Below the pieces are notes generated by a model. The model did no database searches. It was not told the origin of the DNA and worked only from the letters and a program-made list of their open reading frames with translations. The translations under genes and the position numbers were made by a program. This document shows, piece by piece, positions 1,644 to 4,582 of a stretch of DNA of 64,000 nt; the stretch's first letter is position 1, and the number at the start of each line of letters is the position of its first letter. The stretch is from Jiangella ureilytica (GTDB lineage Bacteria; Actinomycetota; Actinomycetes; Jiangellales; Jiangellaceae). Location: contig NZ_SMKL01000026.1 in the NCBI RefSeq assembly GCF_004348545.1, positions 1 to 64,000 of the forward strand, written 5' to 3'.

Positions 1644-2306
1644 TCAGCGGTGCAGCGCCTTCCGCGCCAGCCAGTTCCCGAGCAGTTGCGCCAGCTGGAC
1701 CATCCCGATGATCACCAGGACCGTGACCAGCGTGACCTCCCAGTTGAACCGCTGGTAGCCGTACACGATGGCGAAGTTGCCCAGCCCGCCGCCGCCCACG
1801 TAGCCGGCCAGCGCGGACATGTCGACGATGCCGATGAGCAGGAACGTGTACCCGAGGATGAGCGGCGCGAGCGCCTCCGGCACGAGCACCGTCACCAGGA
1901 TCCGCAGCCGCGACGCGCCCATCGCCCGGGCCGCCTCGATGACGCCGGGATCGGTGGCGACGAGGTTCTGCTCGACGATGCGCGCCGTCACGAACGTCGC
2001 CATGATCGACATGGCGAAGATGACGGCGTCGTTGCCGATCGTGGTGCCGACGACGGCGAGCGTCACCGGCCCGACCGCGGTGATGAAGATGATGAACGGG
2101 ATCGGCCGCACCACGTTGACGGCGACGTTGAGGATCGAGAAGACGACGACGTTCTCGAGCAGGTTGCCGCGCCGGGTCGCGTACAGCAGCACGCCCAGCA
2201 CCAGCCCCAGCAGGCCGCCGGACCCCACCGTCACGCCGACGATGTACAGCGTCTCGCGCACCGACTCCCACAGGATCGGCGAGAGCTCGGACCAGTCGCG
2301 GTTCAT
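1644..2306 (-). CDS. metI: methionine ABC transporter permease MetI
   Basis: A 220-residue inner-membrane protein with five to six hydrophobic segments and the EAA loop of the MetI family (VIEAARAMGASRLRILVTVL), which docks on the MetN ATPase. It forms the membrane channel of the MetNIQ importer for D/L-methionine and related sulfur compounds. Length and topology match the family. The start ATG at 2306 overlaps the metN stop in an ATGA arrangement, so the gene is last in a translationally coupled metQ-metN-metI operon. A longer open frame upstream of this start is only the wrong-frame shadow of metN. Confidence 0.93.
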   Translation of the reverse strand: MNRDWSELSPILWESVRETLYIVGVTVGSGGLLGLVLGVLLYATRRGNLLENVVVFSILNVAVNVVRPIPFIIFITAVGPVTLAVVGTTIGNDAVIFAMSIMATFVTARIVEQNLVATDPGVIEAARAMGASRLRILVTVLVPEALAPLILGYTFLLIGIVDMSALAGYVGGGGLGNFAIVYGYQRFNWEVTLVTVLVIIGMVQLAQLLGNWLARKALHR

Positions 2307-3355
2307 GCGCGCACCCCCGCGACCGCCGCCGTCCCGAGGTCGTCCACGTCGGTCCGGCCGCGCAGGTCCGCGATCAGCGCCGAGATCGCCGCGTCCGAGC
2401 CGGTCAGCTCCAGCGTCAGCGAGCCGAACGGCCGCTCGTCGAGCTCGGTGATGCCGCCGAACACGATCGTCCCGTCGACGCCGTGGGCTCGCAGCGCCGC
2501 CGTCACGTCGACGCCGGAGCCGGCGCCGTTCTCCCTGATCGCGACGGTGACGATCCGGCCGGGATGACGGTGGCGCAGCCGGTCCAGCGCCTCGGGCGTC
2601 GGCCGGTCCTTCAGCGTCGTCGCGACGAACCGGCGGGTAGCCCGCTCGCGTGGCGCGGCGAACACGTCGTACACGGGGCCGTGCTCGACGACCTTCCCGG
2701 CCTCCATGACGGCGACCCGGTGGGCGATCGAGCGGATGACGTCCATCTCGTGGGTGATGACGACGACGGTGACGCCGAGCTCGCGGTTGACCCGGCGCAG
2801 CAGCGCCAGCACGTCCTGCGTGGTGTCCGGGTCGAGGGCGCTGGTGGCCTCGTCGGCGAGCAGGATCCGCGGCGATGTCGCCAGTGCGCGGGCGATGCCG
2901 ACCCGCTGCTTCTGCCCGCCGGACAGCTGCCGCGGGTAGGCCTTCGCCTTGTCGGCGATGCCCACGTAGTCGAGCAGCTCGGCGACCCGCGCGGCCCGCC
3001 GCTCGCGCGGCCAGCCGGCCACCTTCAGCGGGTACGCGACATTGCCGGCGACGGTGCGCGAGTTCAGCAGGTTGAACTGCTGGAACACCATCCCGATGCC
3101 CGCGCGCACCCGCCGCAGCCGCCCTTCGCCGAGAGCGGTGACGTCCTGGCCGTCGACGAGCAGCCGGCCGGACGTCACCGTCTCGAGCGCGTTGACCAGC
3201 CGGACCAGCGTGCTCTTGCCGGCGCCGGAGTAGCCGATGACGCCGAAGATCTCGCCGGCCTCGATGTCGAGCGTGACGCCGTCGACCGCGCGGACGGCGC
3301 CGGCACCCGAACCGAAGACCTTGCTGACGTCCTGGAAGCTGATCACGGGTGCCAT
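2303..3355 (-). CDS. metN: methionine ABC transporter ATP-binding protein MetN
   Basis: This 350-residue ABC ATPase has Walker A (GYSGAGKST, about residues 42-50), the ABC signature LSGGQKQR, Walker B (ILLADEATSALD) and the switch histidine in VVITHEMD. The C-terminal region of about 80 residues has the layout of the NIL domain, which in MetN binds methionine and causes trans-inhibition of transport. That domain separates MetN from other amino-acid ABC ATPases. The gene overlaps metQ by one base (TGATG) and metI by four bases. Transport is therefore likely regulated both at expression and by internal methionine acting on the NIL domain. Confidence 0.94.
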   Translation of the reverse strand: MAPVISFQDVSKVFGSGAGAVRAVDGVTLDIEAGEIFGVIGYSGAGKSTLVRLVNALETVTSGRLLVDGQDVTALGEGRLRRVRAGIGMVFQQFNLLNSRTVAGNVAYPLKVAGWPRERRAARVAELLDYVGIADKAKAYPRQLSGGQKQRVGIARALATSPRILLADEATSALDPDTTQDVLALLRRVNRELGVTVVVITHEMDVIRSIAHRVAVMEAGKVVEHGPVYDVFAAPRERATRRFVATTLKDRPTPEALDRLRHRHPGRIVTVAIRENGAGSGVDVTAALRAHGVDGTIVFGGITELDERPFGSLTLELTGSDAAISALIADLRGRTDVDDLGTAAVAGVRA

Positions 3356-4239
3356 CAGTGCGCGGCGAGGTCCGTCTGGATGCCGTCGAGGATCTCACTG
3401 AGCTCGTCGGCCGGATTGTCGATGAAGACGGCCGTGCCGCCGGACGCCTGCGACGACGCCGCCTCGACCTCGGGCGAGTGGTACAGCTCGACCAGCCGCT
3501 GGAACGTCTCGTTGTCGGCCTCGTCGGACCGGGCGACCCACACGTTGATGTACGGGCGGGCACCGGGGCTGTCGGCCTGGTCCTGATAGAGGGCGTCCGT
3601 GGGCTCCAGGCCCGCGTCGGCGACGAAGTCGTTGTTGATCACCGACGCGTCGACGCTGTTGAGCGCCGTCGCCGTCTGCTCGGCGGCGACGGGGGTGACC
3701 GTCACCTTCGACTCGGACTCGACGACGTCCGACGGCAGCGACGTCGAGCTGCCGCCGCCCTCGAGCGTGATCAGGCCGGCGTCCTGCAGGACGAGCAGCG
3801 CGCGGGCCTGGTTGGTCTCGTCGTTCGGGATGGCGACCTCGCCGCCGTCGGGGATGTCATCGAGCGACTGGTGCCGCTGCGAGTACAGGCCGAGCGGGTA
3901 GATCGCCGTCGCGCCGATGGGCGCCAGGTCGTCGTCGTTCGACACGTTGTACGCGGCCAGGTACTGCAGGTGCTGGAACTGGTTGAGGTCGAGCTGGCCC
4001 TGCGACAATGCCGGGTTGGGCTGTGTGTAGTCGGTGAAGTTGACCAGCTCCACGTCGATGCCCTCGTCGTCGGCGAGCTCGGTGAAGACCTGCCAGTAGT
4101 CCTCGCTGGCGCCGACCACGCCGATGCGGATCGGATCGCCGGACTCGCCGGACGCGGTCTCGGTGTCGCCCCCGCCGCACGCGGCCAGAACGGCGGCGGC
4201 TCCGGCGGCGACGAGGGTCAGGGTGATGCGGCGGTTCAT
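3355..4239 (-). CDS. metQ: methionine-binding lipoprotein MetQ
   Basis: A 294-residue NlpA/MetQ-family substrate-binding protein. It starts with a short lipoprotein signal peptide ending in a lipobox (LAAC, Cys21), then the start of mature MetQ (IRIGVVGASEDYWQVF) and the NFTDYTQPNPALSQGQLDLNQ segment that is highly conserved in the family. It is anchored on the outer face of the membrane and delivers methionine to MetI. It is the first gene of the operon. An ATG at 4239 with a GGAG-like site (CAAGGAGCAG) upstream fits. A Met/Cys-rich leader ORF ends about 150 bases upstream. Confidence 0.93.
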   Translation of the reverse strand: MNRRITLTLVAAGAAAVLAACGGGDTETASGESGDPIRIGVVGASEDYWQVFTELADDEGIDVELVNFTDYTQPNPALSQGQLDLNQFQHLQYLAAYNVSNDDDLAPIGATAIYPLGLYSQRHQSLDDIPDGGEVAIPNDETNQARALLVLQDAGLITLEGGGSSTSLPSDVVESESKVTVTPVAAEQTATALNSVDASVINNDFVADAGLEPTDALYQDQADSPGARPYINVWVARSDEADNETFQRLVELYHSPEVEAASSQASGGTAVFIDNPADELSEILDGIQTDLAAH

Positions 4240-4389
4240 GGCGTGCTGCTCCTTGGTGAGGGTGACGGGTGCGCGGGATGGGCGCGGAAGGTCCCAGGAC
4301 GGCGCGACGGGGGTCGCCGGCCGGTCCCGGTGGGGGTGCGGGGTGAAGAGGGTGGTGCAGGGTGCTGACTCAGTGACGCGCGGACGGCG

Positions 4390-4494
4390 TCAGTGGCAGC
4401 GGCGCATTCGCATCGGACACGGGCGCATGCGCATGCCGCGGCCGGTGGTGGCCGTGGTCATGAGGCGGGCGGTGTCGGACGAAGCGCGAGACAT
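4390..4494 (-). CDS. candidate Met/Cys-rich leader peptide before metQNI
   Basis: A 34-codon ORF starts at ATG 4494, preceded by a GGGAAG site about ten bases upstream, and ends with TGA at 4390. It encodes six methionines and two cysteines. The last 14 residues read MRMRPCPMRMRRCH, so four Met and two Cys codons are packed just before the stop. The composition fits an attenuation peptide whose translation senses charged Met/Cys tRNA, and the ORF lies 150 bases before metQ on the same strand. Short leader ORFs rich in the end-product amino acid are well known for amino-acid operons, and polycysteine uORFs are described in mycobacteria. The regulatory role here is an inference; no clear competing hairpins were identified by eye. 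Confidence 0.55.
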   Translation of the reverse strand: MSRASSDTARLMTTATTGRGMRMRPCPMRMRRCH

Positions 4495-4510
4495 GCGTCC
4501 ATCTTCCCGA

Positions 4511-4529
4511 TTGGACCAGTGGTCTCCAA
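4511..4529. promoter_or_regulatory. GntR/FadR-type palindromic operator candidate
   Basis: The 19-bp sequence TTGGACCAGTGGTCTCCAA contains a perfect GACCA-g-TGGTC core and outer TTGGA/TCCAA arms. Its style matches operators of FadR-type GntR repressors. It lies 17 bases upstream of the leader ORF start and so sits in the metQNI promoter/5' region. The protein that binds it is not known. Confidence 0.45.
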
Positions 4530-4545: not shown

Positions 4546-4582
4546 TCTCACATCGTGAACGCATCAGGATCACAATGTGAGA
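4546..4582. promoter_or_regulatory. large inverted repeat between tctA and the met leader
   Basis: TCTCACATCGTGA and TCACAATGTGAGA form 13-bp arms (12 of 13 paired) around an 11-bp spacer. Smaller dyads (TGTGA-TC-TCACA, TCACA-a-TGTGA) are nested in or next to the arms. It may be an operator for the met leader transcript or the terminator of the upstream tct operon; the sequence alone does not decide. The stretch 4583-4709 holds no gene, but a perfect 15-bp palindrome (CCATGATcATCATGG, 4701-4715) overlaps the tctA stop codon. Confidence 0.4.

Follow-up and report, generated by a model that had tools for sequence, protein, structure and literature searches.

The window, a stretch of 64,000 nucleotides from one Jiangella ureilytica contig, carries a methionine ABC transporter operon, metQNI, and a short open reading frame upstream of it (Table 1). 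We define "leader" as this ORF of 34 codons, which runs on the metQ strand from an ATG at 4494-4492 to a TGA at 4392-4390 and stops 150 nt before the metQ ATG at 4239. A previous reading of the letters alone, here called the sequence-only reading, had described the ORF, its ribosome site, its strand and its distance from metQ; sequence and coordinates were correct. The best specific NCBIfam models for the downstream genes are MetQ and MetN, both of which score under the curated cut-offs. The leader's frame is open further upstream, where a GTG at 4551 would give 53 amino acids; in alignment, the part common to other genera begins at the ATG, not at the upstream GTG.

Table 1. Features of the metQNI locus and its upstream region, in window coordinates.
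Feature	Coordinates	Strand	Basis
metI, permease	1644..2306	-	Pfam BPD_transp_1
metN, ATPase with NIL domain	2303..3355	-	Pfam ABC_tran and NIL
metQ, first gene of the operon	3355..4239	-	Pfam Lipoprotein_9 (MetQ)
Leader-metQ spacer, C 0.52 / G 0.23, possible Rho loading region	4240..4389	-	base composition
AAGGAG, metQ Shine-Dalgarno	4249..4254	-	sequence
Possible hairpin at the leader stop codon	4364..4400	-	folding of 10 genus sequences
Leader ORF, 34 codons and TGA, encoding MSRASSDTARLMTTATTGRGMRMRPCPMRMRRCH	4390..4494	-	sequence, alignment, profile, composition tests
Putative control tail of 14 residues (MRMRPCPMRMRRCH), with four AUG codons and two for Cys	4393..4434	-	alignment, codon listing, composition test
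CGA-AUG pair, rare Arg codon followed by the last AUG	4405..4410	-	codon comparison with leaders of other families
Cys codon at residue 26, an invariant column	4417..4419	-	UGU in 17/17 Jiangellaceae leaders
GGGAAG, Shine-Dalgarno-like, 8-nt spacing to leader ATG	4503..4508	-	sequence
Conserved imperfect palindrome GGAGACCACTGGTCCAAT (GGAGACCACTGGTCC element) upstream of leader, putative operator or promoter element	4510..4527	-	alignment
Palindrome TCTCACAT-N21-ATGTGAGA, putative operator	4546..4582	.	genus conservation, genome pattern search

Two palindromic elements lie upstream of the leader. The one at 4510-4527, which takes the form TTTGAAGACCnnnGGTCYA in other genera, presumably resembles the McbR operator of Corynebacterium. 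The one at 4546-4582 is kept in the genus, and a similar right arm was seen by eye in several other genera; its pattern, searched with up to 3 mismatches, has this single occurrence in the genome, and it is probably the operator of some regulator. Neither palindrome was found elsewhere in the genome, and no sigma-70 promoter consensus was found at the locus.

The tail of the leader is set apart by its composition. Clustering of Met and Cys codons at the end of the ORF had been remarked on in the sequence-only reading, and the last 14 residues indeed hold six of them (four Met), which makes this the richest Met + Cys tail among the 412 ORFs of 20-60 amino acids in all six frames of the window; the runner-up holds five (one Met). 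Tails with at least six Met + Cys, including at least four Met, occurred in 0 of 15,409 ORFs drawn from 20 first-order Markov windows. The composition of the leader tail is beyond chance. A run of contiguous Cys codons, the mark of polycysteine attenuators, is not what the tail contains: its two Cys codons stand apart.

The leader is conserved throughout the genus and beyond it. Of the same-genus loci that a MetQ search of 60 genomes yielded, ten (counting that of the window) come with upstream DNA, and the leader aligned in all ten. An eleventh same-genus MetQ locus (L011, genome G006) begins at a contig end; the leader of that genome stops 83 nt short of the end of another contig, and their adjacency is presumed, because leader and MetQ sit on separate contig ends. 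The G006 leader (L050, G006:C102), MFRVSPDTARTPLTAPGGGMSMCPASMRCCR, is the most divergent of the genus, carries AGC before its last AUG and lies beside the assembly gap. Six loci from other genera of the family (L012-L016, L030) also have the leader in altered sequence. In these 16 family leaders the tail follows one plan, M, M, C, M and C towards the stop; start and stop codons hold, and the columns M1, M21, C26, M30 and C33 are invariant.

A profile built from the same 16 leaders (ten from the genus and six from other genera, G006 not included) matched 17 of the 22 genomes of the order with E below 1e-9. Close MetQ homologues and the leader occur together: the leader is found in 17/17 genomes of the order that have a close MetQ and in 0/5 that do not. 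The conservation of reading frame and Met/Cys tail upstream of metQ in relatives, which had been proposed as a check, is thereby borne out. Across 393 genomes of the class, with at most 20 candidates scored per genome, the profile returned the same 17 and one further match (G280, L093), which sits within a long ORF opposite another long ORF and was set aside as chance. Each genome has one significant leader place, before metQ; in the J. ureilytica genome no second copy was significant (best other E 0.29).

Analogous leaders precede methionine transport operons in other actinobacterial families. We scored 60 loci of the MetQ family, drawn from further genomes of the class (39 metN-I-Q, 19 metQ-first and 2 in which no metN was found) for a short ORF with at least four Met/Cys in its last 12 residues, no more than 450 nt upstream. 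Eighteen loci passed (17/39 metN-I-Q, 1/19 metQ-first and 0/2 without metN), and for each of them the score was reached by 0/100 shuffles. The leaders of Streptomyces-type genomes read MTTTS...ATEATMTPGARCMCRMCAF and, judged by sequence, are clearly of the S. lividans metL type. The same score, extended to 560 nt and applied without a shuffle control to 80 named metQ loci of unchecked gene order, ten of them Jiangellaceae again, was passed by 21: ten Jiangellaceae, two Cellulomonas, Oerskovia, Antribacter, an Isoptericola MAG, four Sanguibacter and two more. Matches in Arthrobacter castelli and a Bifidobacterium among these 21 were not trusted. A further leader type stands before metNIQ in L108-L110 and L163-L165; it has GGMPS near its end, is rich in Met and carries no Arg before the last Met.

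No Rfam family reached its gathering score in the window or in the 16 family loci, and between 4200 and 4720 a search at E ≤ 10 returned a lone 15-bit match, under the gathering score and on the opposite strand. No SAM riboswitch family of Rfam matched at the Jiangella leader locus, in agreement with the sequence-only reading, which had recognised none and had suggested that the peptide may replace it. The distribution of riboswitches fits that suggestion. In an Rfam scan that covered 54 of the 60 class loci and 20 of the 80 named loci, SAM-IV (RF00634) was found upstream of metQ at about 117 nt in L140, 178 nt in L151 and 311 nt in L137, and at about 200 nt in L252 (Pseudonocardia); by the same score, 0/4 of these loci have a Met/Cys leader. 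Many metQ loci have neither SAM-IV nor a Met/Cys leader.

We consider it probable, from comparative sequence evidence, that the leader is a ribosome-mediated attenuator for methionine uptake. The proposal starts from what was observed: a conserved leader ORF linked to metQ and enriched in Met/Cys, the codon choices and low structure of its tail (described below) and the lack of a known riboswitch. From these we infer that the leader is translated, that ribosomes stall on it, which way the regulation runs, that Cys is sensed and that CGA has a role. A ribosome would translate the 34 codons of the leader and, when charged tRNA-Met (probably tRNA-Cys too) is scarce, would stall in the Met/Cys tail; the stall would raise metQNI expression. 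The tail would be kept fairly free of secondary structure, and slow, wobble-read codons would sensitise the stall: UGU, and CGA, which sits in the P site once the last AUG has entered the A site. By codon content the sensed amino acid would be Met, if the leader works at all. Cys codons occur in the tails of 17/17 family leaders and in the leaders of other families listed. A cystathionine beta-synthase scores above its NCBIfam cut-off in the genome, so that methionine uptake could feed cysteine.

The downstream switch of such an attenuator is less evident. An intrinsic terminator with a U-run, as in trp-type attenuation, was sought after the leader and none was found, nor was a conserved terminator/antiterminator pair found at the locus. 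Across the ten genus sequences, 97.3% of cells are paired in the possible hairpin that begins in the last leader codons and the stop; its covariation did not exceed that of shuffles (66/500 reached the observed value), which lends it no support as a covarying switch. Translation-dependent attenuation, the proposal of the sequence-only reading, stands in part: the conserved leader with its clustered Met/Cys codons is supported, alternative hairpins between tail and metQ start or an intrinsic terminator are not, and attenuation itself is the probable interpretation.

Termination by Rho is a serious possibility that falls somewhat short of an even chance. A fully translated leader would expose a C-rich spacer that loads Rho and stops transcription before metQ, and a stalled ribosome or the stop-codon hairpin would prevent this. 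The window spacer has the highest C and the lowest G content of 19 upstream regions in the window, and the spacers of 10/10 Jiangella loci are similar (C 0.48-0.54, G 0.23-0.27); the absence of an intrinsic terminator also favours Rho, which has been suggested, in the available text of a 2005 survey, for candidate cys leaders of Actinobacteria that likewise have no obvious terminator (PMC1262725). The spacers of the six loci in other genera of the family, however, have C 0.33-0.41 and G 0.29-0.41 (0/6 C-rich and G-poor), and Rho leaves unexplained how a ribosome stalled before the stop codon would block it. Among the loci compared, only those of Jiangella have the C-rich spacer, so that Rho can be proposed for this genus alone. 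Given that the leader is an attenuator, Rho-dependent termination in the spacer would be our first choice for Jiangella, with a likelihood approaching even, and control of translation or of mRNA stability would come second, as a plausible but less likely route.

The codon choices in the tail are not those of the surrounding genes. CGA directly precedes the last AUG in 10/11 Jiangella leaders, the exception being the AGC of G006; in the six loci of other genera the codon there is CGC (2), AGC (3) or GGC (1), so that 7/17 Jiangellaceae leaders are without CGA at that place. CGA makes up 129 of 1,450 Arg codons in the window genes, and UGU, fixed at residue 26, makes up 24 of 122 Cys codons. Among 21 leaders of other families, the discovery set of the motif (18 found by score, with the evident homologues L094, L102 and L111 below it), CGA occupies this place in 16, and the other five (L105, L108-L110, L121) lack an Arg codon at it. 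Twenty held-out loci, 17 of them with MetN and mostly from the same two families as the discovery set, gave CGA for 13/13 Arg codons before the last AUG; three leaders were without Arg there and one locus was without a leader.

A separate count, likewise on loci new to the comparison, used 69 named metQ loci outside the family and short ORFs with Arg-Met no more than 16 codons from the stop and at least three Met/Cys in the last 14 residues. It gave CGA 11, CGC 1, CGG 0 and CGU 0. In 30 rounds of shuffling CGA averaged 0.13 and never exceeded 1; on the antisense strand the counts were CGA 0, CGC 1 and CGG 1. Without the Met/Cys filter the loci gave CGA 14, CGC 3, CGG 0 and CGU 0. Probabilities for such counts treat related genomes as independent; with one leader per clade the count is 4/5 (p about 3e-4), and the genus stands at 10/10 without G006.

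The tRNA set points to wobble reading of both codons. Among 45 tRNA genes found in the draft genome the Arg anticodons are CCG, ACG, UCU and CCU, with no tRNA-Arg(UCG), and the one Cys tRNA has GCA. Anticodon ACG becomes ICG, and since no tRNA-Arg(UCG) was found, CGA should be read by ICG; with this set, CGA and UGU should both be read by wobble only. With an inosine-adenine wobble in its P site, the ribosome could then become hypersensitive when a hungry AUG enters the A site, and CGA-AUG would act as a trigger. In a Salmonella his-leader assay, as described in the part of the article available to us, CGA was poorly read and de-attenuated; CGU stalled as well when it followed a His codon, which is a context effect (PMC4046918). 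Only tentatively do we extend this to a widespread class of actinobacterial attenuators that would co-sense tRNA-Met and tRNA-Cys, use the CGA-AUG trigger, lack an intrinsic terminator and alternate with SAM-IV.

The same codons are also predicted to keep the tail open. Folded with a further 45 nt, the tail has less structure than its synonymous shuffles (fraction at least 0.95) in 20/29 leaders, compared with 0/50 internal gene segments and 1/5 gene ends (0.975) as controls; all shuffles, also those for leaders of other genomes, drew codons from five window genes. At the 0.95 level the tail alone gave 14/29 and the tail plus 160 nt gave 19/29, and two leaders, L113 (0.09) and L015 (0.23), tend the opposite way. 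On these folding models, part of the codon choice in the tail is structure avoidance. That CGA and UGU serve only to lower structure in a GC-rich genome, and not slow decoding, is possible but on the doubtful side. Replacing CGA in silico by CGC added structure in 21/22 leaders (mean -2.5 kcal/mol), replacing it by CGG did so in 22/22 (-3.3), and changing all UGU to UGC added 1.7 on average. CGU, on the other hand, would leave structure unchanged in 14/22 leaders and yet was not seen at that place in the leaders compared.

Attenuation of translation in the manner of ermC, in which the leader would pair with the metQ ribosome site until a ribosome stalled on the Met codons freed it, is unlikely. 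RNAalifold on the ten genus sequences pairs GAUGCG of the leader with CGCAUC of metQ codons 4-5, and for the window's own locus folding predicts a more accessible metQ start when a ribosome sits at Met30 (0.64, against 0.46 in the free RNA); translation attenuation is also cited for cysteine genes of M. smegmatis in the accessible part of one article (PMC13236596). The access change is nearly the same, though, with the ribosome at the stop codon (0.62), and while access at L010 follows ribosome position as at the own locus, a consistent change was absent in most of the 14 loci folded. Tail-metQ start pairing in the genus is weaker than in synonymous shuffles (0.90-1.0 of which pair at least as strongly), and over the 14 loci the fraction is 0.64-1.0, the metQ start of L014 being uncertain. 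By prediction, the leader does not sequester the downstream ribosome site. Neither shuffles nor access predictions support the pairing as a switch, or the alternative hairpins that the sequence-only reading had looked to between leader and metQ.

A conserved DNA or RNA element, such as an operator or mRNA structure in which the ORF is incidental, is quite improbable. Nucleotide conservation does run upstream of the ORF through the two palindromes, and variation at third codon positions does not exceed that at first positions (variable sites in the genus at positions 1, 2 and 3: 9, 7 and 5 of 29). Genus leaders gave no evidence of purifying selection on amino acids: pN/pS was 1.38 overall, 1.10 in the N-terminal part and 3.34 in the tail, and the +1 and +2 control frames gave 0.57 and 1.18. 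With third positions conserved as well, the ratio gives no sign of constraint on residues in the genus, and the test of coding constraint that had been put forward to refute the leader counts against it there. Such selection would strengthen the assignment to the metL kind but does not define that kind. In the six loci of other genera pN/pS is 0.72 (tail 0.60). As a group, six cysteine regulatory sORFs of M. tuberculosis are, like the Jiangella leader, without the usual codon signature, in their case unless Cys codons are excluded, according to the portion of the report available (PMC9094748). Against an incidental ORF, gap runs within it in the ten genus sequences are all of 3 or 6 nt, as against gaps of widely varying length in the spacer; TGC and TGT alternate between leaders at the last conserved Cys; and Met/Cys tails recur on unrelated N-terminal parts in other families. 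At the level of sequence, it is the frame-keeping gaps, the codon identity and the recurrence in other families that carry the case for coding. A functional Met/Cys-rich small protein, for instance a metal-binding peptide, is hardly credible: Met, Cys and His residues can bind copper, but the N-terminal parts are unrelated across families, the peptide has no significant Pfam or NCBIfam match, the constraint lies on codons rather than residues, and the leader has its single significant place per genome before metQ.

The attenuator proposed here would be of a kind already known, since the leader is a short same-strand ORF upstream of a methionine transport operon, has Met codons near its stop and travels with the operon. 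The one description of a methionine leader before metNIQ that we found is S. lividans TK24 metL (SLIV_29928), annotated from RNA-seq and, in the available text, without a typical Rho-independent terminator (PMC8079986). That peptide and the Jiangella leader are both short, end in a Met/Cys tail, precede a methionine ABC operon and lack a clear terminator, and the metL-type peptides of Streptomyces-type genomes share CGA before the last AUG with Jiangella. They differ in that the S. lividans operon is metN-first and that of Jiangella metQ-first, that metL is reported as leaderless whereas the Jiangella ORF has a Shine-Dalgarno-like site, and that their N-terminal parts are unrelated. The part of the article available names Met and Thr, and we found no mention of Cys or CGA in it (PMC8079986).

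Other known systems share fewer traits with the leader. The polycysteine sORFs of mycobacteria are likewise actinobacterial, short, upstream and amino-acid-responsive, as far as the available texts describe them (PMC9031893, PMC9094748, PMC4633059); they are leaderless, have contiguous Cys codons and precede cysteine genes (Canestrari 2020, as cited in these texts), in contrast to the mixed Met and Cys codons before methionine transport in Jiangella. The trp and his attenuators also cluster end-product codons at the end of the leader, but the terminator/antiterminator pair they use is not seen in Jiangella. SAM-IV stands upstream of metQ too, in the four loci above, but senses SAM directly. 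In its accessible part, the 2005 survey found methionine operons of Actinobacteria preceded by no conserved RNA structure (PMC1262725). In the literature searched, which left subscription journals mostly outside, we found no mention of a CGA-AUG design or of mixed Met/Cys sensing, and the codon design with CGA before the last AUG may be new.

These comparisons give support to a leader type that we found described once, from RNA-seq, and extend the metL type to metQ-first operons and to several families. The recurrence of CGA, against codon usage and on unrelated leader starts, predicts that a poorly decoded codon beside the hungry one may tune such leaders. That riboswitch and leader stand in for one another at corresponding operons raises the question of why a cell would sense charged tRNA and not SAM.

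The metN-first loci L094-L113 and L156-L172 carry a conserved CTCGCGCCCCGAAGCGAG hairpin no more than 90 nt after CGAATG in 25/37 cases. No U-run was found after this hairpin in those loci, and it could be the switch of the Streptomyces-type leaders. In L158 both arms of a hairpin of this type are altered together (CCCGC/GCGGG). Finally, 6 of the 20 named relatives scanned, from Isoptericola, Oerskovia, Puerhibacterium, Paraoerskovia and Sanguibacter, have a gene for the small SRP RNA some 410-820 nt upstream of metQ (L234, L235, L236, L237, L240 and L245, at about 1520-2062).
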